A stretch of 64,000 nucleotides of DNA from Strobilurus pachycystidiatus. Lineage: Eukaryota > Basidiomycota > Agaricomycetes > Agaricales > Physalacriaceae. The notes beneath the pieces are model-generated. The model searched no databases. It was not told the DNA's origin and saw only the letters and a program-made list of their open reading frames with translations. Shown in pieces: positions 17,705 to 64,000 of the stretch. Numbering within the stretch: the first letter of the stretch is position 1; each line of letters begins with the position of its first letter. The position numbers and the translations under genes are program-made. Where the stretch lies: assembly GCA_019915135.1 (NCBI GenBank), contig JAHLMK010000007.1:2108001-2172000 (forward strand), in the 5' to 3' direction.

Positions 17705-18175
17705 TGTCAAGACCGGTGCCCGAATACTAAGGCAACCACCCAAGTCACAAACAAGACAGAGAAGAGGGATAGAGATTGAAGTATAAGATGTGGAGGAGTG
17801 TGTTGAGCTACAACAGTACTAGGAGCGACCAAGCAGTGAGTAGACGAAGAGAACAGACTGAGGAAACTAAAGGGAAGGGAGCTACTATATATATACAAAG
17901 TCCGTGGCTGTGTAGTAAGGAGGAGAACAATAAGACAATAGGAAGTCCTAATGTGGCGAGACAATAGGCGGGCCGGAGTAGAGACAATAGGCGGTCCGGA
18001 GTGGATCCAGGTGGTCATCAGACCACTGATGGACAGGTCTAGGCAATGCCAAGACGATGGATGCCAAGTGAATGTGGGCTAGGTCCAGGCCGAGGTGAAT
18101 GTAGAGATGGGAGAATGTGGCGATGTCGGGAGTGGGGACGTGATGGAGGAAGCAGAATAGAGGCGATTCGTGACA
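17705..18175 (-). repeat. 3' LTR of element B
   Basis: TGTCAAGACC...GATTCGTGACA on the plus strand. The complement of TATATATA near 17890-17897 would serve as the promoter in the 5' copy. The pol reading frame continues 137 bp into this LTR. Confidence 0.95.
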
Positions 18176-22124: not shown

Positions 22125-22195
22125 AGAGAATCGATTGGTAAAATTTGTGACAGAATTGCGTACAGCTCCTCCTAACGTCGGGGTAGGGGAGCGCT

Positions 22196-42351: not shown

Positions 42352-42517
42352 GTGCTTAGCTTGTACCGTCTAGCCACAGTATTGGCTCTGAAATGAACTT
42401 TTGTCAAAGGTGCAATGTCATGGCCCCGCTCTGTCTTGGCGACCACCATGTGAAGAAATTTCAAACGTTGCCGGGGCTGCGACGGCACGCTGCGGGCACT
42501 CTTCCTCTCGATCTTCT

Positions 42518-45500
42518 ATGGCCAATCCATCTGGCAGTCGTCCTGCTCAAACGACCTGGGATCTTCGCCGGCACACAGCAGACGACTATCGTCGCCGTCG
42601 CGAGTTCGAGCTAGCCAATTTCGGCTCTAGCGCCATCACCCCGGCGGCGCCGCCACGAAGGAGAGGACGCCCATCGAACCAGAGCGTGCAGGCCGCGGCT
42701 TTTTCTGGACCGTCCCAAGAGCCCGTGCGCGACCGTGCCCACTATGTCTCTAGGACGGGCGAAACGGAAACCGTGGAGTATCTTCCGCCTCCTCGTAAAA
42801 GGAGACGGACTGCGACTCCGCCGCCTTTGGCAGAAGAGGGCAGCTTTGGCGACTTCGAGCCAACCGCCTCTTATGAGGCGATCTACGACGACCTACAGGA
42901 CGACGACCTCCATCAAGATGGTCCCCCTGCCGCTTTCTTAGACGCTGATGGGGACATGAATGACGAGGTGGAGGCGGACTCGTTGAAAAGAAAACGGTAC
43001 ACAAGCTCGGTGCGTCATATTTTTCTCCTATGCGTACATACAGTTTGGTGCTTACATGACACGGTGGTAGGACGACCAAATGAAGGAATGGATTCAATTC
43101 ACCGACCTCATGTTCGAAGAGTCCATGCGCCGACATGGGTTGGGCGACGACATCTACGCTCCAGCCTGTTCCACGTGTCAATCCCAAGCATCTCCCACCA
43201 ATCTCTTGTATCGCTGTCGCAGTTGCGGCGATTTCAAAGAGTGCTCGTCTTGCTGCGTTCTTCGGCATCAGCGGACCCCCCTACACCTGCTCCAGGTAAG
43301 CAGCGACTTGTTTTCCACACCGTTCGAGCTTTGCTCACAGGAACACAGGTCTGGGATGACGAAACTTGGGAGCCAGCTACGCTCACTGAGCTCGGCCTGA
43401 TCTACCAAGTCGGGCACCAAGGCGCTGCATGCGGCTTCCCGGATCCGACAGACCGCTTCCTGACAGTGATACATTATCCCGCCACTCACACCCTTCGCTT
43501 TCGCTATTGCCGTTGCAGTCGTAATCAAGGCACCTTCGACTGGCAGCAGCTCTTCCGAAATGGCTGGTATCCGGCAACGACCCACACGCCCCAAACCTGC
43601 GCCACCATCGAGACGCTAAATTTTTTCCGCCGCTTAAAAGTGACAGCCACCGTTTCCGTTCGTGACTTTGTCACCACGCTGGAATCCACGGGCGATCCTT
43701 ATGGCACGGAATGGACTCCGGATCGGTACAAAGCCTTCGGGCGCATGTCGCGGCAGTGGTCTTACATGCAGAGAGTTCGTCGGTCAGGCGTCGCGCATGA
43801 AGTAGGCGGTGTGAGCAAGGCGGCCTGGGGGTCCGTCGCCGTGGAGTGTTGGGCTTGCCCACGCGTAGGCGTGAATTTACCAAGCAACGTCAGCTCTATA
43901 AGTGCTGGGGAGCAGTGAGTCGTTTCCTTCCTCAGGAAACCAGGATGTTGAGCTGATTCCCGTTCACAGGTACAAATTTCGTCGGATTCTATCGGGTGAC
44001 GCCAACTTCAAAATGCGATGCAAGATGCGCGCGTCGCCACGGGAAGATTTTCCGCTGTATACCGGGCTTGGCGTGCAGGTCCCGATGGAGCAGTACCACG
44101 AATGGCTGCGAAGCTATATTACGGAGGAGGAGGTAAGGATTCGGACAACGTCTTATCTTACATTTCAAGGTAACTAATCACTTCATGTCAGGTATCGTCG
44201 TGCATCGCGTTTGCAGCGCTCATGCACAAGGAAACAAAGTTCTCCACGGGTCTCAGGTGGACGGGCGTCTTGGGCGTTATATGTGCACGTCATGAGCTCA
44301 TGCTCTCGCTCGGCGATTTGGAGAAGGGCGAACGGTGAGCAAACACTGTTTTTATATGTGACATTCTCATTTCTCAACATCTCTCGTCAGGTACAAGAAT
44401 ACGGATTGGATCCTATGCTGGCTCCTCAGTCGTTTGGGACTGAAGGAGGTAACGATAACCTACGACATTGCCTGTCAATACAAGAAGAATTTTCACAAAC
44501 GCGTGGCCGCTCTCCCGGATTGTCTCAAGGGTTTAGGTCTTCCGGCATTGACCTGGGGCTTACCTGTGTGGCACGGAAATGTGCATGAAGTCAGCTGCGA
44601 GACGGAGAACAGTCTGCGCTATCAGACCGGAGTGGGGAAAACCGATGGCGAAGGAATCGAGCGATACTGGTCTCAGCTGAACACGATCTCGTACATGACC
44701 CGCGAGGAGCAGCCCGGTGCACGGCACGACGACCACGAGGACAAGATCAATCACATTAATTTCCAGAAGAATATCGACATCGGTGAGAACTTCGGTCGGT
44801 TGTTGGCTACGAAATCAATACTAATAGCTTTTGGCAGGAAAAACCCTCCTGCGACGTTTGCGGATCGCGACTGAAGAACGCGACATACAGGTGAACGCCT
44901 TCACGCTCATGGACTCGGCATTAAAAGGCGGACTGCGCACGGAATGGATGAAGATGGTCAAGGACTGGCTGGCAGATCGGGAGTCGCCCAACCCTTACGC
45001 GCCGTCCGGCAAGGTTAGCGTTTCCGAGCAGAAGGTTCGCGCCGACCTTCACCGGCAGGAGCAATTGGAAGAAGAGACTTTACGGAAGGATGCAGATGAG
45101 GAACTGGATGACGGGGATCGGGAGGGCGAGGACGAGGCGTGTACGGAGCATGACGAGTGCGGCGAGGACCATGGCGGAGAGGGAAGTGCAGGAAAAAAGA
45201 AGCGAAGGCGCAGACGGGCGGCCAAGCGCAAAGTGGCGCCGAAAACGTCCCGCTTGCCGAGGATGACCCCGACGGCGTTTATTATTCAAGGGCTACAGCT
45301 GGAGGACACCAAGTAAGTATCGGCACGTATCAAACTGTTCTTACTAACGATTTTTGCCAGATCACGGTTGCTCGCAGATCGAAAAGCCAGCGTGAATCTT
45401 ACGCTGGCCCGGGAGAGCAGCATACATCAGCGAAGCAAGGCGTTCAGCAGCAAACTCCGAGCATTCCGTCGCCACCAAGCTGTGCAAATGCCGGGCGTGG

Positions 45501-46816: not shown

Positions 46817-48098
46817 GTGTCTCAGACGTTGACAACACTCGTTCAAACTCGACTTATTCCTCAAAGGGAAGTACTTCACGAAAGAGCGTGAGTGCAGGGC
46901 AGAACCACTTGCAAACCGGCCTTCTTGCGAATACAAGGTTCTAACACCAAGTAGATTCGTTGGTACTTGACTTGGTACGTCGGAATAAGGTTCTTTCGAG
47001 TCTTTCAAGGAGCTTGGCAACACCTGATGTCTTTAAATCTTGGAAAGGTCTTTGGGGTCTTTGGGTACTTTGCAGAAATGAGTCGAAACTCGAGATAGAT
47101 TCACTACAACGGCTGCGTCTGACTAGCGGCTACTGGAGGGGGCTCTAAGCTACCGAAATATGGGTCCTTTGGGCCCTTTTATACTACTGGTGGGTTCCTA
47201 CTGAGTAAGCATCTATTCTAGGATCGGATACATCGGACTTTCGAGTCATACAAGTGCTGGATTCTTATTGGCTATCCCTGGTCGAAACAACTGCGGACAG
47301 GCCGCTTGGTCCTTTAGCCATATACGCCACCTTGGCGGTATGGTACAATCCTTGTGCCCAGGAGATCAAGGTCCGATAAGGACTTCGATCCTTAGGTATC
47401 TTTATGTTGCAAGGTCCTACGGACACCTGCTTTCTTGTGGATAGGTTGGATGGAGATCGTTAAGAACGTCCTTTCGAGCGCAGACACTACAGGGGAGTCC
47501 TTTCTTAAAGTGGTAATACACCCTGCTTTCGGGGTGGTCCTTGATCGTGGATCATGATCGATCGGCATAGCGGAAGGCGTCGGTTCGGAGTCCTTGACAG
47601 CTCCGAAGATTGTTTCCCCAAAAGGGTTGTGACGTCCTTGAACTATTTCGGGACCTTCCAGGTCTTTGGGTTGAGGTGCGCCGGTCTTGGGTCGCTCTAA
47701 CTGAACCGCCTGGAGACCTTTGGACCCTCCTTGGGTGCGAATGGTTATAGCACATCGTCTGTAGTACCAGGTACACGCAAAGGTACGGGATCTTAAACGG
47801 GATCCAACGCGCGGATAAGGATATTCGGATGAAGGTGATCGAAGGTTTCGATCGCGCCTGTCCTAAAGGACTTGTTAAGGCGCCTAGACCTTGTCCTGGA
47901 GGCTTGCCCGCGTCAAGGCAGTAACTCCTGCGTGCTCTATCCTAAGTACTTGACTGGAGGTTCCTAAGGTCTTTGGGCTGTTCAGGAATCGCAAAATTCC
48001 CCGTTTCTAGTACTGGAATAGTACCCTGCGTATCAGCGCCAGTTCCGACATTTGACGCTCATGATGCGCGGCGGCAAAGGCTGCGAGGATGACGGCGT

Positions 48099-49766
48099 TG
48101 ATGTGCAAGTTCGGAATAGACCTCTGAAAAGAAGCTATCGTCTAACCACACTATCAATCCTTATCACAACTAGTACTCCTTGTAAGGGAGCTGGGGTGCA
48201 CAAAGGTTCGAGAGAACAAGGTGCTTTTGGGTAATGGAGAAATAGAGATGTATTCCGAATCGCTGTAGTTAAACTACGAGTTGTTTTTGGGGGTGTAGGG
48301 ATTCTGATCGAAATGACACAAGAAAACCTTGAAGTCGTAGGCCGAACCTCTTGACGTATGAAGACCTTAAACAGCGCGAGGCAATGTAGCTTCTACCTAT
48401 CAAGTGCTCTGGTGTACAAGGACTTTGTCTTGGAATCGTCAGGCCGCTACCGCAGGTTTTACGCCACTGGACTGCTAACGATAAGGACTCCTTCTTGCAC
48501 TTAAACCAAACTTCTAGTGTCTTGCACCGGGACCAAAGGTTCCGAAAGGTGTCTCAGACGTTGACAACACTCGTTCAAACTCGACTTATTCCTCAAAGGG
48601 AAGTACTTCACGAAAGAGCGTGAGTGCAGGGCAGAACCACTTGCAAACCGGCCTTCTTGCGAATACAAGGTTCTAACACCAAGTAGATTCGTTGGTACTT
48701 GACTTGGTACGTCGGAATAAGGTTCTTTCGAGTCTTTCAAGGAGTTTGGCAACACCTGATGTCTTTAAATCTTGGAAAGGTCTTTGGGGTCTTTGTGTAC
48801 TTTGCAGAAATGAGTCGAAACTCGAGATAGATTCACTACAACGGCTGCGTCTGACTAGCGGCTACTGGAGGGGGCTCTAAGCTACCGAAATATGGGTCCT
48901 TTGGGCCCTTTTATACTACTGGTGGGTTCCTACTGAGTAAGCATCTATTCTAGGATCGGATACATCGGACTTTCGAGTCATACAAGTGCTGGATTCTTAT
49001 TGGCTATCCCTGGTCGAAACAACTGCGGCCAGGCCGCTTGGTCCTTTAGCCATATACGCCACCTTGGCGGTATGGTACAATCCTTGTGCCCAGGAGATCA
49101 AGGTCCGATAAGGACTTTGATCCTTAGGTATCTTTATGTTGCAAGGTCCTACGGACACCTGCTTTCTTGTGTATAGGTTGGATGGAGATCGTTAAGAACG
49201 TCCTTTCGAGCGCAGACACTACAGGGGAGTGCTTTCTTAAAGTGGTAATACACCCTGCTTTCGGGGTGGTCCTTGATCGTGGATCATGATCGATCGGCAT
49301 AGCGGAAGGCGTCGGTTCGGAGTCCTTGACAGCTCCGAAGATTGTTTCCCCAAAAGGGTTGTGACGTCCTTGAACTATTTCGGGACCTTCCAGGTCTTTG
49401 GGTTGAGGTGCGCAGGTCTTGGGTCGCTCGAACCGAACCGCCTGGAGACCTTGGACCCTCCTTGGGTGCGAATGGTTATAGCACATCGTCTGTAGTACAA
49501 GGTACACGCAAAGGTACGGGATCTTGAAAGGGATCCAACGCGCGGATAAGGATATTCGGATGAAGGTGATCGAAGGTTTCGATCGCGCCTGTCCAAAAGG
49601 ACTTGTTAAGGCGCCTGGACCTTGTCCTGGAGGCTTGCCCGCGTCAAGGCAGTAACTCCTGCGTGCTCTATCCTAAGTACTTGACTGGAGGTTCCTAAGG
49701 TCTTTGGGCTGTTCAGGAATCGCAAAATTCCCCGTTTCTAGTACTGGAATAGTACCCTGCGTATCA
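48099..49766 (-). repeat. 3' LTR of element A
   Basis: 1668 bp, TGATGTGCAAG...GCGTATCA on the plus strand. The complement of CCTTTTATACTACT near 48906-48919 gives TATAAAAGG on the minus strand, the probable core promoter of the family. Confidence 0.95.
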
Positions 49767-49775
49767 TCTCCCCTT
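49767..49775 (-). promoter_or_regulatory. Polypurine tract of element A
   Basis: AAGGGGAGA on the minus strand directly adjoins the 3' LTR. Confidence 0.8.
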
Positions 49776-49909
49776 GACTTATGAAATGTCGTCCGCGACA
49801 TAGTCCTTGGTGGTTCAGAACCTTTATCCTGGGTACCAGGCCGTCGTGACGAAGTCCCCTTTTGGTTTCTATCGCCCGATGGACCCTCTTTTGCCTAACT
49901 TCGTTCCGT

Positions 49910-49916
49910 TATAAAA
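49910..49916 (+). promoter_or_regulatory. TATA box of antisense gene B1
   Basis: TATAAAA followed by GG lies 55 bp before the B1 start codon, on the strand opposite to gag-pol. It matches the TATAAAAGG of the element's own LTR promoter. Confidence 0.6.
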
Positions 49917-49964
49917 GGTCCTGGGACTTGTCCTCAGACCTTTCATTCCTGCCTTTATTCTATC

Positions 49965-51499
49965 ATGGCTCCCAAAACTTGGACTCCCATCGCAAAACTG
50001 CTTCCCACAACGCCGCACGTTCCGTCCGCGAAGGACCTGATCACTACGCGCGACCTTGGCGCCGGTCTCGTCGCTTATGCGCTCGACTACGACCCTCCAG
50101 CCAACACACCCGACTTCCTTATGTACCTCGGCATGCATCTTACGCTCATCATTCCCAAGGTCCATCGGCTGGACCTCAAGAAGGCGTGTTCGAATCCCGA
50201 CGTGGCACTGGAGATCACCGGCTATGTTGACAAGATCATGGAGAGAGTCCTTGTGTGTACTCCTTCGCTGTGTTCTTTTCCTGATCCTGACTTCATCCTG
50301 TCCTTGTTTTCTTTAGGCCGTCGCCCATGACCTTCGCACCTTTCCGAATGGTTCCAAGGTGTCGACGGACATGGCGGTGTTCTTTTTCAACCTTCGCCTC
50401 TATGTAGGGATGCTGGTACACCTGCTGGGGATTCACCCTCAGACGCCGACGCACCACATCGCTCATATCCTCCAACCTTTGGTGAGCAGCTGCAAGAAGG
50501 CGTCTAACGCCCACTTCCCTGGCCTGTCCCCGGGTCACCCTATGCATCCGGATAACGCTTATTTCAAGCCGGACAAGCTTGAGAAAGGCAAGGTATGTCC
50601 GTTCATTACTCGTCGGTTTCCTACTGTAACCTTTGGATGTCTTCGCTTAGAAGACGAAGAAATCGCCCGAGGTCGTTACCGAGGCCATGGAGAAACGAGC
50701 CGAGGCGGGAGACGGCGACGTCGCGATGGATCCCGACTCTTGTGCGCGCTTCTTTCGTCCGGAGTACTTTAATTGGGCTGACGATGTGGCAGCTGGCGAG
50801 AGCGACGGTGAGGACTCCGTTGTCGTCGTCGGTGATACTGTGCGCTCAATCTCTTTGCCAGTCTCATCTTCCTTTATTGAAGCCTTTCGCCAGCTCCAAC
50901 TCGCCAATTCCTTGTCAAAGGAAGCCGAAGCGGTACGTTCCTTTGAGTCCTATGTTTGTCCCGGACGTCCTTATGACTTCTTTAATAGTCATCTTCCGTC
51001 CGTTACCTTCCTTTCGCAGCTCTTCCCGGTATGGACATTAACGCCCGTGTTTACCAGAAAGCCCTTCAAACCTTGGGCGCGATCAATGGTCAAGAAGCTC
51101 CTCCTAAGCGTAAGCTTAACGATGAGAACGCTCGCCGGGTTGTAAAGGCGGCCCGGCCTTCGACCTTTGGGGTCGAACCCGTCGTTCTTAAACAACTTGA
51201 AGGCGGTAAGGTGCTTCTTCCTCGCTCCTTGGTTTGCCTTGTTGATTCCTGGTTATTTCCCCTTAGCGAACCAGTACATCAATGGTCTGTCTGCTGCCTT
51301 GGCCCAAGTCCACAAGCGTATGTCAAGGTTGTCTGGTCTTGACGATCCCAACATCTCGCCCAACTTGGTCATTTTGGAACGCCAGTACCGGCACGACATT
51401 ATCTCGACCTTCAACGAGATTCGGGGTCGTATCCAAGTCTTGCAGTCGACTCGCGACCTTTATATCTCGGCCTTAGACGCGATAGACCAGGCTCAGTAG
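49965..51499 (+). CDS. Accessory gene B1 of element A (antisense to gag-pol)
   Basis: Five exons fit in frame: 49965-50252, 50317-50592, 50651-50932, 51058-51205 and 51267-51499, about 408 residues, start MAPKTWTPIAK. The third intron's acceptor is uncertain (51019 or 51057); only the latter keeps frame. The N-terminal half is well structured by eye (FLMYLGMHLTLIIPKVHRLD, MAVFFFNLRLYVGMLVHLLG). An acidic centre (ESDGEDSVVVVGD) and a helical C-terminus (LERQYRHDIISTFNEIRGR) follow. No known family recognised. It is transcribed towards pol, opposite to the element's own genes. Confidence 0.7.
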
Positions 51500-51874
51500 A
51501 CTACAAGGTCCTTCTTTAGCTTAGCTTTCGCCAAGTCTTAACCAGTACTACTCATAGTTTTTCTCTACTTCGTCTTTATACTGGTTTCGGATTTCTTCTC
51601 TACTTGTAGGAGCGGTAGTCACTTTGTTTCCTTAGACTACTCTAGGCCCAGTTGGTGCATAATCCAACTCCTTTCGATTTGAACCCTCAAAGTTTCCTGA
51701 CCGCCTCCTGGTAGGCCTAAGATCGAACTTAGTTCGATCGGCTATCGCCGATCGTACCTACCTTTAGATTGGTGGCGCCTAAACTTTGTCCTTTTATCGG
51801 CGTGTTCGGACCTTCTTGATTGGCGGAGGTTTTCTTTTAAGTCGGTCGTGGCGACAGGAATCTCATCTTTGATC
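51500..51874. other. Spacer between B1 and B2
   Basis: No gene seen. A palindromic cluster around 51721-51757 (GATCGAAC...GTTCGATC, GGCTATCGCC) and a CTTTTATCGG sequence near 51790 may belong to the B2 promoter. Confidence 0.4.
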
Positions 51875-53011
51875 ATGCCCGCGCCCGTCCTGCCTTCCTT
51901 TGCAGATACCCGCATTCAAGGCGTTCGACTTCGCTCGCCTTTGACCTCCTTTCAACATGACTTAGTCACAGCGGACCTTGCGCTGAGCTGCGCCATGGAG
52001 ATGTACAACTATACACGCTACTTCGTTGCGGTAGTCCGTCATCCGGAGGGGACCTTAGCTACGGAGGACGACACTCGCCTCCTTCCCCAGCTCAAGCCTC
52101 CGGTTCATGCCTTTGGTCGCGACGAACCTCTAGACGTTCCAACCTTGCGCTACCTTTTGCACGTCCTGGTAGGTCTAGTTGACTTCGCCTCGACACCTTT
52201 CTTGACTAACGGATGGTCCTTAGGTCCGCTTTCGTTATATCTGGGAACCCGCTTTTCACTTCCAGAACGGGGCCATTCCTCACGGCTTCAAGGCGCACTT
52301 CTTTCCTTTGTACTACACCGCCGTCGAACTTTGCAAAGCTTGGTTCGCCGAAGGCAATACCCTTGACGGTGAAGGCGCCCGCTTCCACCTGGGGGACCTT
52401 AACATGGACATCCTTGCGAGTCACCCTTGGTTTACCCAAGAGTTCATCGGACCTTTCATGGTGAGTTAAACCTGGTCTTTTCCTTTCATGTCTTGTGGTC
52501 GGCGCTGACCTTAGACGTAGGTCGAGGCCCACTTTGGTGGTTACTCTGGCTTTTCCACACTCCTTCGCTCGCTTTACATCGGGTCTGACGACCTGAAGGT
52601 CCTTCCTGTCCAGTATGGGGACCTTCCTGCCGACCTTGTCACGGTTATGAAGTGGTGGCCAGAGTTCCAGCGTCAGAACTCTGCTCTTTATGGCTGGGAC
52701 GACGTCTACGCGTTGGATAGACCTCCCAATATGCGTCGGTTGATCCCTGAGATTGACCTTCCCGCCAATCGGGTCCGTGAACAACTACGTAGTTTGAGGT
52801 CCGTTTGTAACTTCTGTGTTTCCAGCGCCCCAACCAGTCGCTGCCTATCATCGATCCACTACTCTGGCTCATCGACTGGTCGGAGGCCACCGAAGTAGAC
52901 TACGAACTCCTTGCTGCTAGTATGTTAGCAATCGACCTTCGCAACGCAGGACCTTTCTATGCGCGCCTCGCGAACCTTGCGGTCCCTCCTGATTGGAGTC
53001 GTTTTGCTTAG
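51875..53011 (+). CDS. Accessory gene B2 of element A (antisense to gag-pol)
   Basis: Four exons (51875-52168, 52224-52460, 52521-52772, 52826-53011), every junction phase 0, giving 322 residues from MPAPVLPSFADTR. The protein is evenly aromatic and globular-looking: AMEMYNYTRYFVAVVRHPEG, RYIWEPAFHFQNG, MDILASHPWFTQEF, LLWLIDWSEA. There is no signal peptide or membrane segment and no family I can name. The in-phase exons with good GT-AG borders argue strongly for a real gene. It converges with gene C. Confidence 0.75.
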
Positions 53012-53400
53012 TCCTTAGTTGACTTCTTTTGACCTAAAGGTCGCCTTTCTTTTCTTCCTTACGAATGTTCCTTATAGTCACATTGCTTTTGCCGGTATTA
53101 CCTTACTCGTAAACGCAGTTCCTTGTGGTCCTTTTTGACTTCCAAGGTCCCTAACCTCTGACCTTTGCGACCCTTGGTATATCAAGGAGAGTCCTGGACT
53201 CTCCCCTTGACTTAAGGTTTTAAACTAAGGTCCTTGTTCTTGTTTCCTTAGTGTTTTTCACACGGTTCTTTGAGTTCAAGAAGTTGTAAATTGTTATATA
53301 AAATACAACGGGGGCGGGCGATGCGTATATGAGAGTGTCCTTTTGGCACTGTGACTAGTATTCTTGTATATAAAAAAAAAGATATGACGGCGGGACGCTA
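53012..53400. other. Convergent 3' region of B2 and gene C
   Basis: 389 bp with no open frame of note; AT-rich near 53290-53390. It presumably holds both polyadenylation regions. Confidence 0.45.
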
Positions 53401-55511
53401 CTAGCGTCCCACCGCGATCTCGGCGACTTTCCTAAACTTCCGGCGGCTCTTCTCACTCAGGGAGAAGTACAACGCCAGGACTTTGTCCACGTCCTCGGCG
53501 GGGTCGACACGGCTGGCGGAGGTGGAGGACGACGCGCCTTGACGGCTGGCTCCTTCACCCTTGTCCTGTTGCTGGGCCGTGCTGATCGAGGTGGTGGCCC
53601 CCTTCGAGGACTTGGTGGAGGCGGGAGGCGGGGCGGCGCTGACCTTTCCCTTCTGGAGGCGGGTACGGGGCGCTTGGATTTCCTCGACGTCGGAGTCGCC
53701 AGTGCCCTCTTCGTCCGACGTCTCCTCCTTCTTCGCCTTGCCCTTCTTTCCTTTCGTGCTCTCGACGCGACGGCGCTTTGCCGGGGGCTCGTCCTTCTTC
53801 CTCTGCTTCTCCTCCTTCCACCGCTGGTCCGCTTCTTTTGCGATAGCTTGCGCGGCGTCGGAGTAGTCCTGGTGGCGCCGGGCCCGGATCTGGGAATCGG
53901 GCTTACTCCTTGCCACGGCCTGTAACTGGGCGCGAACCTTGAGCGCGACCTCCTTCCACGGCGCGGGGACCTGACTTCGCCTCCACGCGACCCAGCACGG
54001 ACCATGTTGTCCGTCCTTCTCTTTGCACTGGTCGCACGTGAAGCTATTGTTCTTCTCGGCGGGCGTGGCGTGGATCCGGAAGTAGGTGCACGTCAACCGC
54101 TGCTTGATGCAGGGGACGCAGACACCGTCGTCGCGGTGGAGGGGGATGCGCGGGTTGGTCTTGTCGCGGACGTCGAGGACGAAGTCGTCCTTCTCCTCGT
54201 CGCTGGCTTCGGCGTCTTCGTCCAACTCGTCCTCCTCCTCTGGTTCCTCCTCGACGAACTTGCGCTTTTGGCTTCCACCGGTGGTGGCGCGCGCGACCGA
54301 GGTCTTCCGGGTGGGGGCGACGTCCTTGTCCTTGTCCTTTGGCTCCACCTTCACGACGACGGCCTTTGGCCTGGTCGAGGCGTCAGCAAGGATTAGCGGC
54401 GCGATGGTTCGGCGGACGTACTTGGTAACCGATTTGGGGCCACCTTTACCCGCCGCGACAACTGGTCGTCGCTGGGGAGGTTCCATCTCGGGCGTGGGTT
54501 CGTGGTGTGACGAGAATGCTGGAGACGGGGCTCGCGAGTCGTGGGGACTGGGCGACGCCTCCTGCGCGAGCTGTTGCATCGTGGGGCGCGGAGTTCCCTC
54601 GTCGTCAACCTTGCTGTCGAGACTCGGCGTCCCTTCGCGCTGGTAGTCCGTGATACCCAGCTCGGCAATCGCGCTCTCGATGAGTTCGTCCATCGTTTTG
54701 AGGAACGACCTGTGGATGGGGAGGTTGTCGCGCTGCTTGCGCATCTCCACTATCAAGGCGCCCCAGAACAGGTTGGCGCGATCCTGATCATTCACGAACA
54801 TCCAGAGATAATCCAACTCCAGAAAACAACGCTGAGCGTCGTCTTCTGAGAGCCGGATGGCGAGCTCTGGGGCTACGCGGTCGTTGTTCAGGAACGTGGT
54901 TGCTCGAGTGGGACGGACCTGCTTTTTGTAGGCGGAGGTGGCGCGCCACGCGGTGCTGAGCGCGGTCTCCACTCGTTCGAGCGGAGTGGCCCTGCTGGCT
55001 GGTTTCGCCGCCAGCGCGTCCTGGAACGTCAGCCAGAAGACCCCATTGTGCAGGTAGTCGTAGTACCCGGCCTTCTGCAAGATCTCCCGTGTCGTCGTTG
55101 GGTTGGCGCACAGCAACTCGGCCAGGTGCAGGCTGATACCTGCGTCTAGTTCCGGCGGCGCGGTCCTGTTCGTCAAGAAACCGCTGTAGTCGAACAGGGG
55201 CCGCGTCATTTTGACATGGTCCGGCCTGGCTTCGCAGGGAATGGACGGGAGCTAGCAGAGGGGGGTGGCAGTGGTGAGTTTCGCCGTTTCTCAACGCGTT
55301 TTTCGTCACTACTCACCTGCTCCTGCCCTTGCACCTCCATTTCCTTCTCCTCCTGGACTGCGGGAGGCTCCTGGTCGCCTTTCGTCGGCGGCTGCGATTG
55401 CGGCGGTGACTGCTCCTTTTGGTAAGTAAGTTCACCGCCTCGTTCTACGCTGTGATCGTGCCAGGCACTTACCTTCGCGTCCACAGTGGGGTCGTTCTCT
55501 TGAGGGAGCAT
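53401..55511 (-). CDS. Accessory gene C of element A, six-cysteine nuclear-type protein
   Basis: Three exons in phase 0 (55511-55473, 55415-55317, 55251-53401; introns 57 and 65 nt with GTAAGT and GTGAGT donors) give 661 residues from MLPQENDPTVDAK. The N-terminal third is globular (LFDYSGFLTNRTAPP...LDYLWMFVNDQDRANLFWGAL). A disordered middle with acidic and basic blocks follows. A cysteine motif CVPCIKQRLTC...CDQCKEKDGQHGPC lies near residues 415-460, with spacing C-x2-C-x6-C-x16-C-x2-C-x8-C. This suggests zinc binding, perhaps related to fungal Zn2Cys6 fingers. The C-terminus is NLS-rich (PPAKRRRVESTKGKKGK). It lies downstream of pol on the same strand; its introns would have to survive in the genomic RNA. 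Confidence 0.8.
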
Positions 55512-55866
55512 GGTCGTGGTGGTTGTTCGGTGAGTGGTGCTTCCTTTTCTGCGCTTACCACATCGCCTACGGGCTTATCACTTTTAAGCTTTTCTTTATT
55601 CGCACCCCGCCACTTCCCTGATGCCTCGTGCCTTGTCTTGCTTCCTTATTCTGTCCTTAGTTCAATGCTACCTTAGCTACCTTTGTAGCCAGCTGGGCAC
55701 AGAATAAGTCTTAAATAAAATTTTTATAGTCTTTGAATAGATGGACCGATGTCCCATGGACCGATGTCCCTCTATTCTCTCTTTACTTTTCTGATGACGT
55801 CCCCGTCATCTGGTATGGTACCTTGGCTTCCTTTTGAAGCTGTAGTCCAGTCCTGGGTGCTCAAGG
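55512..55866. other. Spacer between pol and gene C
   Basis: 355 bp, no gene. It must contain the gene C promoter if the gene has its own. A direct repeat ATGGACCGATGTCCC occurs at about 55741-55770. Confidence 0.4.
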
Positions 55867-58800
55867 TCACGTAGTTCTCGCAAGGACATCTAAGGTCTTT
55901 GTGATCGGCTTACTTATGAAGTGTAGTCGATCAAAGAACTGTTTTCCAAGGTCTATAGGATCTCGTCGCGATACAAAAGGTATTACACGGAACTGAGCTA
56001 TCTTGTCTTTGTAGATCGTCCCGTCCAACTCGCAGACCACATAGTTTCCTGCCGAGGTCCTTGTTACTACCGCGTAAGGTCCCATAAACCTTTCCTTGAA
56101 CTTCGCATTCATTTCTGATTCGATCCTAGTGTTCCTTACTAGCACTAGTTCACCAGTTTTGAATTTGTAGCGAGGGATACTGTTCTGGAAGTCCTCTAGG
56201 AACTTCGCCGCGGCCTTCTGTTTATTTAGAAGGACCTTCGACCTTAACTTGGCAGTATCTTCCTTGTGCTTGATGAGCTGCCTAGCTCGGAAGGCAATAA
56301 GGTCCGAATGGGAGACCAGTCGACCTGGTGCTTCGACTAGCCAAGTCAATTCCTCCAGGTCCATTGGCATGATTGGTTCACAACCGGTTACTGCCTGGAA
56401 CGCTGAAGTACCTAGACTTCTCTTTATGGTAATGCGCTCTGCCCAAAGGACCTCATGTAGGAACTCTGGCCATTGCTCGGGTTTACCCCTGCATACCTTG
56501 AAGAGAGATTGACGGATATCCCAGTGTCCTCGTTCAACCTTTCCGTTGGCTTGCTTATTGTACGCCGTGATCAAGATACCTGTGATACCATATTTCTGTT
56601 CAATATGTACTAAAGCCTTCTTGATTGCTGGCCCATTGTCGGTTACAATTTCCTTGATACAACCCCACCTGCATAGAATGTCCTCGAAGATCCATTCTCC
56701 CAGTGACTCGGCGGTCTCTTCCTTGAGAGCCCTTGCCTCTGGCCAACTTGTTAATCCACACCTTGCTACGGTCACAGCGTTGAAGCCGGCCCATTTTGAA
56801 GGCCGTTTCTTTCGGGTGGATTCCTCTCCTGCCTTAGGCATCCGGAAGGTGTCTATATAAGCCCTTTCGTAGATACCTGGAGTTGAAGTAATCGTTGGTG
56901 CAACCTTTATGTTACGTTTCTGGCGTTTCTGACATAGTACACAGGTCCTTACATACCATCGTATGTCGACCTCCATACCTGGCCACCAGAATCGCTTCAT
57001 GATGAGTTGTAACACGGAATATTGTCCTTTATGTCCTGCCCGGTCGTGTAGAGCTTTACAAACCGGGATTCGTTCATTTGGAAGTAGCACTCGACGGGGG
57101 TGGGAGTCCAAATGGGTTCGGTATAACCTTTCATGCTGGACAAAGAAGTCTTTGCTCCATTTCTCCAAGTCTTCGTCCTCAAGTACATCTTCCGATTGTA
57201 AGTAAGGTTGAAGTTTGGGCAAATAGGTCTCCCACAAACGCTCCCTTTTGCTCTTATTGAGCTCCGGGAACTCCGTGATATGCATCCAACCTTCGATATC
57301 CTTAACGTTGACTAGTCCCGCAGTCCTTACCGCTTTAGAAACCTTTATATGGTCTGGTAAAGGACTCCGTACTATTTCCTGGAAATAGCCTCCCCTACTG
57401 TCGATGTCATTCCTGAAAGTGTCAAAGTCTAACGGCTGCTCCTCTATAGGCAGACCTTTAGGCTCCTGGTACTCAAAGGTATTGACCTCGTCATCCTCTA
57501 TGTTTATGTGAGGTCTGGGTACTACTACATCATGCTCTGAAGCTGGACGGCGACTTAAACCATCCGGGCCATGAACCTTTCCTGGTACGTGTACAAGCGT
57601 GAAGTGATACATCAAGATCTCCTCAGCCCACCTTTGCAGGTTTGCGTTCGCTAAGGAGTCCACGTTGGATAACATGCCCTTGATGTATTTTGCATCCACT
57701 TCAATTTCTAGTTTTCTACACCCTAGAAGGTAGTACTTGCACGCGGACAGAGCTCTGAAGAGCCCGAATAGTTCTCGCTTGGCTTGCGAGTACCTTGCCT
57801 CTCTTTCGTTTAATGTCAGAGACATAAACTTTGCAAAGTATCGTTTCTTGGGGTCCTTGGGATCTACCTGGGACAGATAGAAACCTACTGCCTGGTAAGA
57901 GGTGTCTACCGACAGCGTGATTGGCGTGGACCATTCATAATTCAGTGGTTTCAGCATCGGACAAGTTCGTATGGCTTCCTTTAAGGTATCCATACTTTCC
58001 TGCTCCTCGTCTGTCCATCTGAACTTGGTAATGTCTTTGGTTAACCTGGTCAAAGGTAACGCCTTCTTAGAGTAGTCCTTTACAAATGCTCTGAAGATTC
58101 CAGCTGTTCCTAAGAACGAACGGACTTCCGTGAGCGCTTTACAAGGGGGCCAATCCGAGATCACCTTAACGCGATCTTCAGCTGGCTTTCTACCTTCGTA
58201 GGTACAGACATGTCCCACTACCACAATCTCTTCTGCACAAATGATAGCCTTGTGACCAGAAAAGGTCCCTCCGGCATGTTTCATTCGCTGTATGATCCTG
58301 TTCATGTTCACAAGGTGTTCCCAAACGAAACGCCTTACTTCAGGATGACCTGGAAGCGTTTCGTAGGTGCCATCAGCTTGTTCATATCGCGTAGCGGGTC
58401 CGCGGACGGGCACATCGTCGATATAAGGTCTGGTAAAGGCTGGTATTTCATCCTTGAGAATCGTTGTAACATCGTCATGAAAGATAGGTACTGAATTAGT
58501 CCAGCCCATCGGTAAGGTCTTTAACCTTAACGCTCCGTAAGGTGTCGAGAAGGTTGTCATATCGCGAGACGCGGTGGCAAGGAGCCGTTCGTCATATCCA
58601 ACGAACAGATCCAAGGTTCCTCCACAACTTCGTCCTGCAAAGGACTCCGCTAGTTCCTCCGTGGCTGGAGGTAACCCTGAGTGCGCAATGGTCACCGCAT
58701 TGAGTGGTTCCAGACTATGCACTAGGCGAAGCTTCTTTCCATCCTTCTTAACAACACAAAACCACCTGGAGCGGTATGAGGAGTTCGAAGGCTCATACAC

Positions 58801-59712
58801 GCCCGAGTCTAGTTTGTGTTTGATAATCTTACAGACTTCGTCATAGATTCCTGGTGGAATTGGTATATTCCTTAACACCCAAGGTGTGTGCGGTATTACC
58901 GGGATATCCACTGGTGGAAAGAACTCTGGTTTGAAGTGTCCTTTCTCAGATTCTTCCCAGGCAAAGCCTTCGTTCTGGTTACAGAAGATGGAGTCTATAA
59001 TCCGTCTTTCTGCATCCGTCAGGAAGTCCCCGACGTGGTCGGCTTGTATCTGTTCCCTCCTTTCGTCAGTATACCTACCTGTGGGTACGAAGGGTGGTGG
59101 ATCAGGTACTAATTCCGGCATCCCAGCTAGTGGGTCTCCATGAATGTGGCGCTTGATCCTGAATTCTTCAGGTAAGGTTCCAAGGTGAGCTTTGGTTTTC
59201 AAGGCTACTGGTTTGTACTTCTTTCCTACGAATACACCCCTCTTAGGGATCTGACTTTCCAACCTTAGGAACTCCTGTTGTGCCTCCGCCATGTAATCCC
59301 TTGGTAAGGTTACCGACAAGCCCGTAAAGACTTGTTCTAACTCCTTTGGTACCCCGTAAAAGAGATTCAAAGTCGCCGTGGCGTAGGACTTAAATTCTTC
59401 TTGGTCTTCCGCAATCTGATTGATATTGAATACCTTGCGAAAGCCTTGACTCTTGGTTGGGACCTTTAATAGTCCCGTAGGTGTCACCATATGTTCTGGG
59501 ACAGTCATATGTGTCGATGCTTGATGCATCGATGCATGCATAAAGGCGTGTTGTTTCCTTAGCCGTTTGGCTGCCTGATGAACCCTATTGGGTGACTTCT
59601 TCATGTATAAGGACGTTAAGTCCCCTTCCCCGAAGGTCTCCCTGTTATCCCCAGGTATCCAACTTTGCTTTACTTCGATGTTTCCTTCTGGTGACCTTTC
59701 GAGGATCAACAC
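55867..59712 (-). CDS. pol: Pol of element A (RT-RNaseH-IN)
   Basis: 1281 codons shown from a GTG; the frame is open further upstream into the protease gene and lies -1 to it, so it is probably made by ribosomal frameshifting. Reverse transcriptase spans about residues 290-520 (RWFCVVKKDGKKLR, GTLDLFVGYDE, PMGWTNSVPIF, RPYIDDVPV). RNase H follows (LSVDTSYQAVGF, KRELFGLFRAL, EVDAKYIKGM). Then come the integrase zinc finger (HDRAGHKGQ...CVLCQ), the integrase core (AYIDTF, VTDNGPA, GKVERGH) and a GPY/F-like module (RFMGPYAVV). There is no chromodomain, unlike element B. All key acidic residues are present and there is no internal stop, so it looks functional. Confidence 0.95.
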   Translation of the reverse strand: MLILERSPEGNIEVKQSWIPGDNRETFGEGDLTSLYMKKSPNRVHQAAKRLRKQHAFMHASMHQASTHMTVPEHMVTPTGLLKVPTKSQGFRKVFNINQIAEDQEEFKSYATATLNLFYGVPKELEQVFTGLSVTLPRDYMAEAQQEFLRLESQIPKRGVFVGKKYKPVALKTKAHLGTLPEEFRIKRHIHGDPLAGMPELVPDPPPFVPTGRYTDERREQIQADHVGDFLTDAERRIIDSIFCNQNEGFAWEESEKGHFKPEFFPPVDIPVIPHTPWVLRNIPIPPGIYDEVCKIIKHKLDSGVYEPSNSSYRSRWFCVVKKDGKKLRLVHSLEPLNAVTIAHSGLPPATEELAESFAGRSCGGTLDLFVGYDERLLATASRDMTTFSTPYGALRLKTLPMGWTNSVPIFHDDVTTILKDEIPAFTRPYIDDVPVRGPATRYEQADGTYETLPGHPEVRRFVWEHLVNMNRIIQRMKHAGGTFSGHKAIICAEEIVVVGHVCTYEGRKPAEDRVKVISDWPPCKALTEVRSFLGTAGIFRAFVKDYSKKALPLTRLTKDITKFRWTDEEQESMDTLKEAIRTCPMLKPLNYEWSTPITLSVDTSYQAVGFYLSQVDPKDPKKRYFAKFMSLTLNEREARYSQAKRELFGLFRALSACKYYLLGCRKLEIEVDAKYIKGMLSNVDSLANANLQRWAEEILMYHFTLVHVPGKVHGPDGLSRRPASEHDVVVPRPHINIEDDEVNTFEYQEPKGLPIEEQPLDFDTFRNDIDSRGGYFQEIVRSPLPDHIKVSKAVRTAGLVNVKDIEGWMHITEFPELNKSKRERLWETYLPKLQPYLQSEDVLEDEDLEKWSKDFFVQHERLYRTHLDSHPRRVLLPNERIPVCKALHDRAGHKGQYSVLQLIMKRFWWPGMEVDIRWYVRTCVLCQKRQKRNIKVAPTITSTPGIYERAYIDTFRMPKAGEESTRKKRPSKWAGFNAVTVARCGLTSWPEARALKEETAESLGEWIFEDILCRWGCIKEIVTDNGPAIKKALVHIEQKYGITGILITAYNKQANGKVERGHWDIRQSLFKVCRGKPEQWPEFLHEVLWAERITIKRSLGTSAFQAVTGCEPIMPMDLEELTWLVEAPGRLVSHSDLIAFRARQLIKHKEDTAKLRSKVLLNKQKAAAKFLEDFQNSIPRYKFKTGELVLVRNTRIESEMNAKFKERFMGPYAVVTRTSAGNYVVCELDGTIYKDKIAQFRVIPFVSRRDPIDLGKQFFDRLHFISKPITKTLDVLARTT

Positions 59713-59732
59713 GGCTTCTTCATAGGAGTTTC

Positions 59733-60905
59733 CTACGTCCTTAGGTTCCCGTGAAAACCCGTTTGTCCCCCTGGAATCATATGTCTTGGGATCTGTCCTC
59801 GACGGTAAGAAGGTAGCGATAACTTCTTCCCATTGGTGTTATCCGTAAGGGTTCCGATTGCGTTCCCGTTGGGAAGGTTGGTGATGACCAGGTTTGAAAC
59901 GATCTCGAAAGGTCGTCCCAGTAGGACCTCATAGGCGGGATCCTGCAACACATGCAACTGAAGGTAATAGACAATTCCTTCAAAGTCAAAAGGTATGTTA
60001 CGAGCCAATCCCAAGGTACTGGTTCGTCCCTTGTCCGCACTTTCCATAGTAATGGTGAAAGTGGGATCATAGGCTATTCCTAGTTCCAATGCTGCCTTGA
60101 GCGAAATGGAGGCGATCTGCGACCCACCATCCACTAAACTCTCCTTTTTACCATTCTTGTTGATCAAGGGCCAAAAGGTTCGTAGATCTGCATTTTCCGG
60201 CGCCATATTGCCACTTATCATTTGAAAGGGACCAGTATAGTGACCTCCGGAAAGGTTTACAAACTGTTCTACCGCATCGTGGACTATAATTCCACCAATA
60301 GGTAAATCATCTTGCTCATGAAAGTTGACTGAATATAGCTCGGGTTGGAAGTGATCTTGGACCGTATCGGCCACTACTTCCGTCTTGAATACAGCCACAG
60401 GCGTGTTGCGTTTCCTGATGAAGTCCGAAATGCTCTGCTGCCAAGGGGGGTTGGTAGCTAGTAGGGCTTCGGGTAACAAGAACTTCCAGGCTTCACGCCA
60501 ACTGGGATTCTTGTGCAAGAGTTCTTCTGCCAGGCTACGACGTTGGAAACTCTTGACCTTAGGTTCCTTAGGTTGAACCTTTGGTTGGTTCTTTTCTGGC
60601 AGAGTTGAATCTGCTTTTGATTGCGGCACCGGGTCGGGTTCTTCCATCGCTAGGACTTCGTCAAGAAGGTCCTGGTCAACAGGTTCTACTTCTTGAGTGA
60701 CTTCCGGCTTGGAGAATGATACCTTAGGCGGCGCTGCTTTTGGAATGACCACGGACACCCGGTCCTTAGGCCATGAGATTACCTTGTTTTGTGGAGTTGA
60801 ATCCACAGGTGCACTAGGTGCTTTTGCGCTCTGACGAGTCTGACGAGTTTCTACAGTGAACTGGCTCTCCGGAGGAGTATGTGCTAACTGCACTCCTTCC
60901 TTCAT
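59733..60905 (-). CDS. Protease ORF of element A
   Basis: 390 residues from an ATG overlapping the gag stop as ATGA. The N-terminal ~200 resid ues are Pro/Lys-rich, with a helical part (AEELLHKNPSWREAWKFLLP). The protease lies near residues 255-340, with LVDGGSQIASIS (active-site D-G-G rather than the usual D-S/T-G) and the C-terminal flap motif YEVLLGRPF. It cleaves the polyprotein in the particle. Its frame is -1 to gag. Confidence 0.85.
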   Translation of the reverse strand: MKEGVQLAHTPPESQFTVETRQTRQSAKAPSAPVDSTPQNKVISWPKDRVSVVIPKAAPPKVSFSKPEVTQEVEPVDQDLLDEVLAMEEPDPVPQSKADSTLPEKNQPKVQPKEPKVKSFQRRSLAEELLHKNPSWREAWKFLLPEALLATNPPWQQSISDFIRKRNTPVAVFKTEVVADTVQDHFQPELYSVNFHEQDDLPIGGIIVHDAVEQFVNLSGGHYTGPFQMISGNMAPENADLRTFWPLINKNGKKESLVDGGSQIASISLKAALELGIAYDPTFTITMESADKGRTSTLGLARNIPFDFEGIVYYLQLHVLQDPAYEVLLGRPFEIVSNLVITNLPNGNAIGTLTDNTNGKKLSLPSYRRGQIPRHMIPGGQTGFHGNLRT

Positions 60906-62374
60906 CGAGCCCTGCCGAAACCCTGATAGGCGTCGGGGGCAAACTCTTCTTCTTGGTTTGGGGTTTGAACATACATCGCGACCTCAGGTGCAAACTCATC
61001 TTCTTGAGATTGGAACGCCGATACCTTAGGTGCATTTTCTTGTTGAAACTTCTGGACTTGTTCCCAAGGGCTGAGAGGCTGCTTGGGACTAACCCTTTGA
61101 ATAGGTTGACTAGTAGTTCCATTCGTTACATGATATATGTTGGTACCACCAGGCTTGTAGATATGACCATTGCTTTCGCACATTTCCTTTGTAGGACAAT
61201 TCGCTACAATATGCCCTAGTTCACGACAGAAGTAACACCTTCCATCGTTAACTACGAACTTGTTTCCTGGGAACGCGCCCGGAGGAGCTTTGTAGAGTCC
61301 ATTCGGTAAGTTGGTCGGGACTGAGACACCTTGAGCAGGTGTTTGTAGATAAATCGGCGAGGCTTCTTGTACAAAACCTTGGGTGCGGAGTCCTTGCGGA
61401 CCTCCACGCTGTAAGGTATGGAGAAGTTCTGCCATCATCTTCTGATCAGCCTTGCGAGCCTCTTCGCGTTCCTTTTCTCCTTTCTGGATAATGTCCTGAA
61501 GGCTAGCTACCCTATTCAGGTATTCATCCAACTCCTCTGTCTTGATTCGGGTGGTAGAGGCGGGAATAAGTTCTCTGTTATAAGGACTATCCTTCGCACT
61601 CTTGCTCATCCATTTATCGGTCAAGAAGTAGTTGGAGATCGCTGCCTCGACCTCTGACAATGTGAAGTCATAGGTGGGGGTTGTCCCGGCTGTTGCATTA
61701 GCTTTCGCATCGCGCCTGAGGTCCCCAAGGACATTATGCCAAACTCCCTCTGTGATAGAGGACTTGATATCTTCTATAGCACCCTTATTGGTAAGTTCTC
61801 CCGACGTGATAAGATGTCCCATGATATGGAGCACTTCGCGCTGAAAGCTTTCCCATTTCTGCTTGTTGGCTACGGGCCTAGCCAGGTACGGGTCCAAGGC
61901 ATCCTTTAGGTCGGCCGGGACGTACGTAGGATCGTTCTTTCCCTTTGAGTATGAGGAAAGAACTGATTCTTGGAAGTCCGCCCAGACACCTTTCAGGTAG
62001 TCTGGGTTTTTGTGCCACCTTAGGCGTTGTTCGTGGCCGGCGTATAGCGCCGCTACTTCCAACTTAGTACCTTGTTCGGTGATTCCTGTCTGGTCAAAGA
62101 TCCAGTTGCACATCGTGAAGAATTCCCTCACATCGTCTCCAGAGTGTCCCTTGAACTTTGGGGCATCCCTTGAGAATGGTATCGGGATCTTCTTGCCTTG
62201 GATCTCGCCTCTAGCTTCAGCGCTAAGTTCCTCGGAAGGTACAATTGCTCGTACTGCCATTACTGGAACTGGTATCGTGTTTTGGGTAGACGGGTTAAAG
62301 TCAATGAAGGGGGTAATAGGTTCTGGACTTTCGGGGTCTTCAAGGTCAGTCAAAGGACTTCCGAAAGGTGTCAC
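60902..62374 (-). CDS. gag: Gag of element A
   Basis: 490 codons drawn from a GTG; the frame is open to about 62778 without an in-frame ATG. The first ATG inside is at 62260 (MAVRAIVPSEEL). The upstream ~130 codons (for example AQAQRRFADPTTPKNQKKKR) look like protein, so the start may be spliced in or non-AUG. The capsid-like region carries FSRDAPKFKGHSGDDVREFF; the zinc knuckle CYFCRELGHIVANC is near residues 375-390. The C-terminus has two EFAP repeats. It packages the element's RNA. Confidence 0.9.
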   Translation of the reverse strand: MTPFGSPLTDLEDPESPEPITPFIDFNPSTQNTIPVPVMAVRAIVPSEELSAEARGEIQGKKIPIPFSRDAPKFKGHSGDDVREFFTMCNWIFDQTGITEQGTKLEVAALYAGHEQRLRWHKNPDYLKGVWADFQESVLSSYSKGKNDPTYVPADLKDALDPYLARPVANKQKWESFQREVLHIMGHLITSGELTNKGAIEDIKSSITEGVWHNVLGDLRRDAKANATAGTTPTYDFTLSEVEAAISNYFLTDKWMSKSAKDSPYNRELIPASTTRIKTEELDEYLNRVASLQDIIQKGEKEREEARKADQKMMAELLHTLQRGGPQGLRTQGFVQEASPIYLQTPAQGVSVPTNLPNGLYKAPPGAFPGNKFVVNDGRCYFCRELGHIVANCPTKEMCESNGHIYKPGGTNIYHVTNGTTSQPIQRVSPKQPLSPWEQVQKFQQENAPKVSAFQSQEDEFAPEVAMYVQTPNQEEEFAPDAYQGFGRAR

Positions 62375-62814
62375 AAATGCGGGACTAGGCGAAGTTCTAG
62401 AGTCCGAATGTCTTCGGATACTGGTTGGAGTTCTCGAAGGTGATTCAGGATCTGAAGAAGATCTGATCCTAGAGGCAGTAGGTGTTGAAGGTGGTACTTG
62501 CGTACGTTTCTTCTTTTGGTTCTTGGGAGTAGTCGGGTCTGCAAAACGTCGCTGTGCTTGAGCTACTTCACTAGGTAAACCGTTGTAAAGTGAGCCGGCG
62601 ATTGGGCGATTGCTTCTTAGGCGACTAGTGATACCAGAGGTTGCTGGATTTGAAGATCCGGCAATAACTGGGTCTCCTTTTGGTGGTTGTGGATTTGCGC
62701 GGTTCTGGCTGTTGGTGTAACGACCAGAGTTCCTTGCAGCCAGTGTCTTTTGTTTATGGAGATTCCGATCTCAAGGTCGACTTAGAAGTCTCTTTCGAAA
62801 TCAAAATTTACACC

Positions 62815-62832
62815 CCCTCGCGGTGGGCTCCA
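62815..62832 (-). promoter_or_regulatory. Primer-binding site of element A
   Basis: On the minus strand TGGAGCCCACCGCGAGGG starts 5 nt after the 5' LTR. TGG matches a tRNA 3' CCA, and the complement would be a tRNA ending GGTGGGCTCCA. I cannot name the tRNA. Confidence 0.65.
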
Positions 62833-62837
62833 AAATA

Positions 62838-64000
62838 TGATGTGCAAGTTCGGAATAGACCTCTGAAAAGAAGCTATCGTCTAACCACACTATCAATCCT
62901 TATCACAACTAGTACTCCTTGTAAGGGAGCTGGGGTGCACAAAGGTTCGAGAGAACAAGGTGCTTTTGGGTAATGGAGAAATAGAGATGTATTCCGAATC
63001 GCTGTAGTTAAACTACGAGTTGTTTTTGGGGGTGTAGGGATTCTGATCGAAATGACACAAGAAAACCTTGAAGTCGTAGGCCGAACCTCTTGACGTATGA
63101 AGACCTTAAACAGCGCGAGGCAATGTAGCTTCTACCTATCAAGTGCTCTGGTGTACAAGGACTTTGTCTTGGAATCGTCAGGCCGCTACCGCAGGTTTTA
63201 CGCCACTGGACTGCTAACGATAAGGACTCCTTCTTGCACTTAAACCAAACTTCTAGTGTCTTGCACCGGGACCAAAGGTTCCGAAAGGTGTCTCAGACGT
63301 TGACAACACTCGTTCAAACTCGACTTATTCCTCAAAGGGAAGTACTTCACGAAAGAGCGTGAGTGCAGGGCAGAACCACTTGCAAACCGGCCTTCTTGCG
63401 AATACAAGGTTCTAACACCAAGTAGATTCGTTGGTACTTGACTTGGTACGTCGGAATAAGGTTCTTTCGAGTCTTTCAAGGAGTTTGGCAACACCTGATG
63501 TCTTTAAATCTTGGAAAGGTCTTTGGGGTCTTTGTGTACTTTGCAGAAATGAGTCGAAACTCGAGATAGATTCACTACAACGGCTGCGTCTGACTAGCGG
63601 CTACTGGAGGGGGCTCTAAGCTACCGAAATATGGGTCCTTTGGGCCCTTTTATACTACTGGTGGGTTCCTACTGAGTAAGCATCTATTCTAGGATCGGAT
63701 ACATCGGACTTTCGAGTCATACAAGTGCTGGATTCTTATTGGCTATCCCTGGTCGAAACAACTGCGGCCAGGCCGCTTGGTCCTTTAGCCATATACGCCA
63801 CCTTGGCGGTATGGTACAATCCTTGTGCCCAGGAGATCAAGGTCCGATAAGGACTTCGATCCTTAGGTATCTTTATGTTGCAAGGTCCTACGGACACCTG
63901 CTTTCTTGTGTATAGGTTGGATGGAGATCGTTAAGAACGTCCTTTCGAGCGCAGACACTACAGGGGAGTGCTTTCTTAAAGTGGTAATACACCCTGCTTT
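62838..64000 (-). repeat. 5' LTR of element A, cut by the window end
   Basis: It starts TGATGTGCAAG and shares the private variants of 48099-49766 (GAGTTTGG, TTTGTGTAC, GCGGCCAGG), unlike the solo LTRs. About 505 bp should lie beyond the window. Confidence 0.95.

Follow-up and report, generated by a model that had tools for sequence, protein, structure and literature searches.

The window analysed here, a stretch of 64,000 nucleotides from contig JAHLMK010000007.1 of the basidiomycete Strobilurus pachycystidiatus (searched genome: 51.8 Mb in 61 contigs), harbors a retrotransposon of 16,407 bp on the minus strand (48099-64505), the right end of which lies 505 bp outside the window. Between pol and the 3' long terminal repeat (LTR), this element holds three additional genes, namely C in sense orientation, followed by B2 and B1, both antisense, located as an earlier note on this DNA had claimed. 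Its features, in the order of the element strand and in window positions, are:

62838..64000, continuing to 64505 in the genome, minus strand: 5' LTR, 1668 bp, 99.94% identical to 48099-49766, TG...CA ends
62815..62832, minus strand: primer binding site of 18 nt, following the 5' LTR and complementary to CCA-bearing 3' ends of the transfer RNA (tRNA) type
60902..62770, minus strand: gag open reading frame (ORF) with a CCHC zinc knuckle (zf-CCHC, E 0.0011, 19.4 bits, just under the Pfam cut-off of 20.8)
59733..60983, minus strand: protease ORF overlapping gag and pol (gag-asp_proteas, E 0.018, a weak match below the cut-off)
55867..59838, minus strand: pol, 1323 amino acids (aa), with reverse transcriptase (RT), ribonuclease H (RNase H) and integrase (matches RT_RNaseH_2, RT_RNaseH, Integrase_H2C2)
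55473..55511, minus strand: C exon 1 with the ATG (C comprises 662 aa overall)
55317..55415, minus strand: C exon 2
53401..55251, minus strand: C exon 3; in a low-confidence model, an N part of helices, a six-cysteine cluster, a charged tail and C-terminal helices
51875-52168, 52224-52460, 52521-52772 and 52826-53011, plus strand: the four exons of B2, 322 aa
49965-50252, 50317-50592, 50651-50932, 50989-51205 and 51267-51499, plus strand: the five exons of B1, 431 aa
49910..49916, plus strand: TATA-box-like TATAAAA, starting 55 nt upstream of the B1 ATG
49767..49775, minus strand: polypurine tract AAGGGGAGA, adjoining the 3' LTR upstream on the element strand
48099..49766, minus strand: 3' LTR, 1668 bp

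The two LTRs differ by a single mismatch, as the near identity claimed in the earlier note implied, and both flanks of the element carry the 4-bp target duplication GCGT (about 1 in 256 by chance alone). TG...CA ends, a short target duplication, a primer site and a polypurine tract are what is found in LTR retrotransposons, and gag, protease (weak match), RT and RNase H, with integrase in the last position, follow the Ty3/gypsy order, so that the element is a Ty3/gypsy-order LTR retrotransposon as far as assignment by domain order goes. Within the pol ORF, RNase H covers positions 608-744, followed by H2C2 at 922-975; RVT_1 and rve remained unmatched at E<=1, and the RT was called by eye from its YIDD motif. 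Judged by its sequence, the present copy is a recent insertion of a multicopy family. The internal region measures 13,071 bp from LTR to LTR, and the previously used label “giant” is therefore too strong for it, considering the definition of more than 20 kb of internal sequence in the available part of PMC6431247.

The frames of gag, protease and pol are all open and overlap by 82 and 106 nt from stop to stop, which suggests that Gag-Pol is made by frameshifts or splicing. The primer site pairs with two of the four retrieved genomic pieces, the tRNA-like L077 and L079; the other two, L078 and L080, are not tRNA-like. L077 and L079 were read as tRNA-Lys, with the anticodon judged by eye, and ARAGORN in its bacterial setting reported a single tRNA among the four pieces, an unnamed one in L079.

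Each of the three additional genes allows several in-frame GT-AG combinations, and the models were picked by splice-site form, length and conservation. The in-frame GT-AG exons proposed earlier are borne out in the sense that GT/AG is kept at nearly all tested sites across 27-30 copies. The modelled introns are 53-65 nt long. Both introns of C and the three introns of B2 show GT/AG in 30/30 copies; for B1, the survey across copies covered introns 2-4, with GT in 26/27 and AG in 26/27 for intron 2, GT in 28/30 and AG in 30/30 for intron 3, and 29/30 for each site of intron 4. The AG at the end of B1 intron 3 (50988) is thus present throughout and that of an alternative acceptor at 51019 in 29/30, and the start of exon 4 is backed by the diverged relative L070, whose matching peptide begins at the same point. 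Further support comes from length variation in C, where 17 of the 30 copies have an intron 1 of 57 nt and the other 13 one of 55 nt, and intron 2 measures 64, 65 and 63 nt in 19, 10 and 1 copies, respectively. The C model nevertheless stays open through to the stop in 29 of 30 copies (the stop of L059 lies outside the reference columns), and lengths that differ by non-multiples of three while the frame remains open are what true splicing predicts. Both C introns (55252-55316 and 55416-55472) are in sense orientation and were kept in 30/30 retrieved copies, none having been lost via retrotransposed spliced RNA.

All repeat counts given here are lower bounds, and 30 of the 32 places with full-length C were retrieved for alignments. 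Full-length C exon 3 occurs at at least 32 places; its open frames there span 612-617 aa and are 82-100% identical. At 29 of these 32 places B2 and the B1 site were found close by, and neither at the remaining three; an intact site for B1 exon 2 is present at at least 37 loci. The pol proteins of 35 scored copies are 98-100% identical, 34 of them without an internal stop, and LTR places are 99-100% identical to the present LTR among the matches listed. By gene content, the scored pol copies comprise 21 with C and B, three with C and the second of two deletion junctions, nine with the first junction, one with B only and one with none. At G000:C1:4005008-4012464, pol, B2 and B1 were found with no listed C, and ~450 bp separate the pol end from the first match to B2; here, C alone was apparently deleted.

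The genes are not present in every copy. The first junction, observed at at least 14 loci of which nine adjoin a scored pol, deletes C and B2 along with most of B1, and links window position 50521 to 55610 at a short common word (4/4 retrieved copies). The second, found at at least three loci, eliminates B2 and the larger part of B1 while sparing C, and links 50058 to 52957 (L067 and L068). Junction and B1-site patterns read backwards served as control and gave 0 matches each. The earlier note had named gene-less copies as evidence that would point to a one-off capture or a later nested insertion. Such copies do exist, but both junctions fall within B1, and they are therefore deletions derived from the full form. 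There is strong reason to infer that these deletion forms multiplied by retrotransposition, which would make the genes dispensable in cis; C, B2 and B1 thus probably act in trans.

Selection was assessed by pooled Nei-Gojobori estimates of the ratio of non-synonymous to synonymous divergence (dN/dS), using 25-30 copies and rows with <=5% gaps for B1. The ratio amounts to 0.153 for C exon 3 (30 copies) and 0.078 within its six-cysteine region, 0.143 for B2 (30 copies, 29 of them free of a premature stop), and 0.074, 0.60, 0.047 and 0.098 for exon 2 (part), exon 3, exon 4 and exon 5 of B1, compared to 0.045 for the 3' end of pol. These values show purifying selection on all three genes.

The gene set also extends beyond the present family. 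In L070 (contig C31), amino-acid identity to the present element is 76% for pol (last 83 aa), 32% for C, 43-56% for B2 and 50-54% for B1, and order and orientation, pol-C-B2-B1, are the same. L075/L076 (contig C27) share 79% in pol (213 aa) and 35-38% in C, followed by B2 at 48-56%, where the comparison ends. Moreover, nine of ten divergent B1 places (75-77% identical in the last exons) are located within ~5 kb of a C match, C27:247299 being the exception, so that nothing in these matches points to an origin of B1 among host genes. Of the homologues hoped for from profile searches, none appeared in Pfam above the cut-off, be it with B1, with B2 or with exon 3 of C. A public protein collection contained two relatives of C (68 and 46% identical; 7997 candidates scored), none of B2, and none of B1 among the best 8000 candidates, which does not imply absence as the fungal share of the collection is unknown; a search of viral contigs gave no relative of C.

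Taken together, co-occurrence at 29/32 places, purifying selection and an unchanged gene order in a diverged relative support the view, already put forward in the earlier note, that the three genes are part of the mobile unit. The genes could instead be passengers, captured once from the host or another transposon and without function for the element, as might be suspected from the multiplication of gene-less copies (14 loci with one junction, nine of them beside a scored pol) and from the lack of known element-type domains in B1, B2 and C. We consider this very unlikely in view of dN/dS values of 0.05-0.15 across most tested coding parts and many copies, a conserved order in a relative whose C is only 31-32% identical, and the proximity of nearly all divergent B1 places to C.

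C itself stands out by its divergence. Across 30 copies, the mean pairwise divergence is 1-3% at the pol end and 3-6% up to C. It rises to 12-18% in the first half of the gene, drops to 6-10% in the second and is ~12% past C; medians for B2 and B1 are 0-7%. Medians were used on the B1 side because of a few badly aligned rows, with 95% quantiles near 0.5; L067 and L068, which have no B2, inflate the B2 columns of the divergence and distance-correlation tables, and trees are based on the 28 of 30 copies without them. Synonymous divergence is 0.08 at the pol end, declines along C from 0.36 to 0.20 (0.29 in the last helix) and is 0.07 in B2. As it is far higher in C than in pol and B2, we take it to reflect a longer history of C and not a relaxation of constraint.

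Consistently, distances at the pol end hardly predict those in the N part of C (rank correlation, rho 0.12). Among 435 pairs, 25 are <=1% apart in pol but >=10% in C, and 15 are >=2% apart in pol but <=2% in C. In trees of 28 copies, the well-supported splits in conflict are 4/7 for pol vs. C, 4/7 for pol vs. B2 and 11/15 for C vs. B2, with 1, 0 and 1 splits in common for pol/C, pol/B2 and C/B2, respectively. The same island recurs in a second lineage: DNA identity between L070 and L075/L076 amounts to 93.5% in a 723-bp stretch that stops just short of C and to 96.7% in a 1133-bp stretch that runs from ~50 bp past C through B2, whereas their C proteins share 37% (N part) and 35% (C part). These patterns show that C has a history distinct from the rest of the element and that copies are mosaics, and C appears to act as an exchangeable cassette between them.

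The divergence of C could have arisen neutrally, if old subfamilies had diverged throughout and recombination had then recently spread LTR, gag and pol, homogenising all but C. Mosaicism is plain, and the first lineage can be explained equally well by such a sweep across C types that were already old; in addition, the dN/dS of C is low, similar to that of B2, and gives no sign of positive selection. What such a history accommodates less easily is the recurrence of the island in L070 vs. L075/L076 with edges near the gene ends, as well as the far lower divergence of B2 and B1 beyond it. We would give this explanation somewhat less than an even chance, and selection for C diversity is possible. 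A more far-reaching proposal, which we regard as unlikely but worth stating, is that C represents a polymorphic specificity locus, i.e., a nucleic-acid-binding protein with many old, open allele classes, exchanged at a fixed position as a cassette of gene size, by whose type elements would recognise, regulate or exclude each other, in a manner similar to phage immunity regions or fungal compatibility loci.

Regarding the function of C, its six cysteines follow the pattern CX2CX6CX17CX2CX9C in 30/30 copies, in the public relatives P0001 and P0002 and in L070. Fungal Zn2Cys6 regulators feature CX2CX6CX5-12CX2CX6-8C together with a Pfam Zn_clus match. An assignment of C to this class was rejected, since exon 3 gave no Zn_clus match and the spacing is off, leaving a resemblance only. 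C exon 3 contains no hydrophobic stretch (maximal 19-residue Kyte-Doolittle mean 1.01) and is highly charged, with 101 K+R and 95 D+E. These properties also bear on the idea that C is an envelope-like (env-like) gene and the element comparable to an endogenous retrovirus. Position and orientation of C indeed recall the plant env-like genes described in the available part of PMC7264820. An env gene would, however, be expected to encode a transmembrane protein between pol and the 3' LTR, which hydropathy, charge and cysteine cluster of C argue against, and B1, with its borderline stretch, is antisense; we therefore view an envelope function as highly improbable. The likeliest role of C, given the absence of a membrane stretch, the high charge and the cysteine cluster, would be that of a nuclear, nucleic-acid-binding regulator, analogous to what was proposed for plant TRP28 proteins.

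In the model that we favour with moderate confidence, the present element is thus a recent copy of a multicopy Ty3/gypsy-order family with three accessory genes between pol and the 3' LTR, which would act in trans and include a regulator, C, that is exchanged as a cassette. B1, with its upstream TATA-like box, and perhaps B2 would be driven by their own antisense promoter; in L070, a TATA-like box lies 54 nt before the B1 ATG, compared to 55 nt in the present element, and another TATA precedes B2. Splicing of the genomic RNA would not see antisense introns, which is why B1 and B2 could keep theirs. C, in turn, would be translated from a spliced sense mRNA while the unspliced RNA is copied, and the presence of the sense introns in all retrieved copies means that the copied RNA must escape their splicing. 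Retroviral genomic RNA likewise escapes env splicing. Equipped with its cysteine cluster and charged tail, C could then regulate the element in the nucleus, B1 and B2 could serve as its partners or counter-regulators, and C cassettes could be swapped through template switching between co-packaged RNAs during reverse transcription.

Several observations weigh against this model. Copies with gene losses exist at 14 and three loci with two common junctions, C is partial or broken at no fewer than 11 additional places, and for two of the 29 C copies accompanied by B2 (contig C11) the listed matches do not include the first exon of B2. A premature stop interrupts 1/30 B2 copies, and the dN/dS of 0.60 in B1 exon 3 is high, although derived from few changes (proportion of synonymous differences, pS, 0.011). 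On the protein level, B1, B2 and C exon 3 have no Pfam match above cut-off, the cysteine spacing of C differs from canonical Zn2Cys6, no credible relative of C was found among solved structures (best E 0.48), its structure model is of too low quality to interpret (mean predicted local distance difference test score, pLDDT, 40.8, from a three-row alignment), and B1 has one borderline hydrophobic stretch (1.74). Finally, no TATA was found before B2 in the present copy, and TATAWA occurs 4 and 7 times on the two strands of the internal region compared to 3.5 in one-strand shuffles.

Apart from this element, the window contains further mobile DNA. An additional, truncated LTR at 46817-48038, just left of the element and 98.8-98.9% identical, represents a separate insertion. 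An ordinary Ty3/gypsy chromovirus with RVT_1, rve and Chromo domains occupies 18042-23809 on the minus strand, a CxC2 cysteine-cluster protein associated with KDZ transposases is encoded near the element at 42395-43915, and the ORFs 1263-2387 and 29719-30843, 28 kb apart, have identical translations of 375 aa and form another repeat of the window.

Extra antisense genes of plant Ty3/gypsy elements have long been known, while a function is lacking. Here, one single genome offers dozens of copies with open genes, natural deletions of gene subsets and different C versions in near-identical backgrounds, and such natural forms make the role of extra retrotransposon genes directly testable. In addition, the element provides a case of genes with introns, including a sense-oriented one, that survive reverse transcription.

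Among fungi, Boty reportedly contains one extra antisense gene, brtn, going by the title of Zhao et al. 2011. The available parts of PMC7264820 and PMC8365987 describe Boty, or BcGypsy1, of Botrytis cinerea as a Gypsy element with the extra antisense gene brtn, and the rule that fungal elements encode gag-pol only, as stated in the earlier note, was accordingly overstated. In contrast to the three-gene set described here, Boty features this one extra antisense gene. Among the titles listed from the open-access literature, none concerned a fungal Ty3/gypsy element carrying these three genes. Also compared by description, Ogre elements of plants owe much of their size to LTRs of 1.9-6.5 kb each (PMC6431247, available part), and LTR retrotransposons of bdelloid rotifers, i.e., of an animal host, likewise carry additional ORFs (PMC5408684, available part).

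Together with Boty, plant Ty3/gypsy elements may be regarded as partial precedents. According to the available parts of PMC11963269 and PMC7264820, most copies of Retand, Grande and RIRE2 carry antisense genes, the function of which is unknown. For Retand, the former source reports, in the part available, an antisense TRP28 domain in 97% of clusters and tandem-repeat arrays in about half, and it also holds the proposal of a DNA-binding or nuclear role for TRP28 proteins of plants. With these elements, the present one shares a long region from pol to the 3' LTR with antisense genes as well as recently active defective forms. It differs from Retand in having a single 30-bp tandem repeat, two antisense multi-exon genes and one sense multi-exon gene, which encodes a cysteine cluster and behaves as a cassette.

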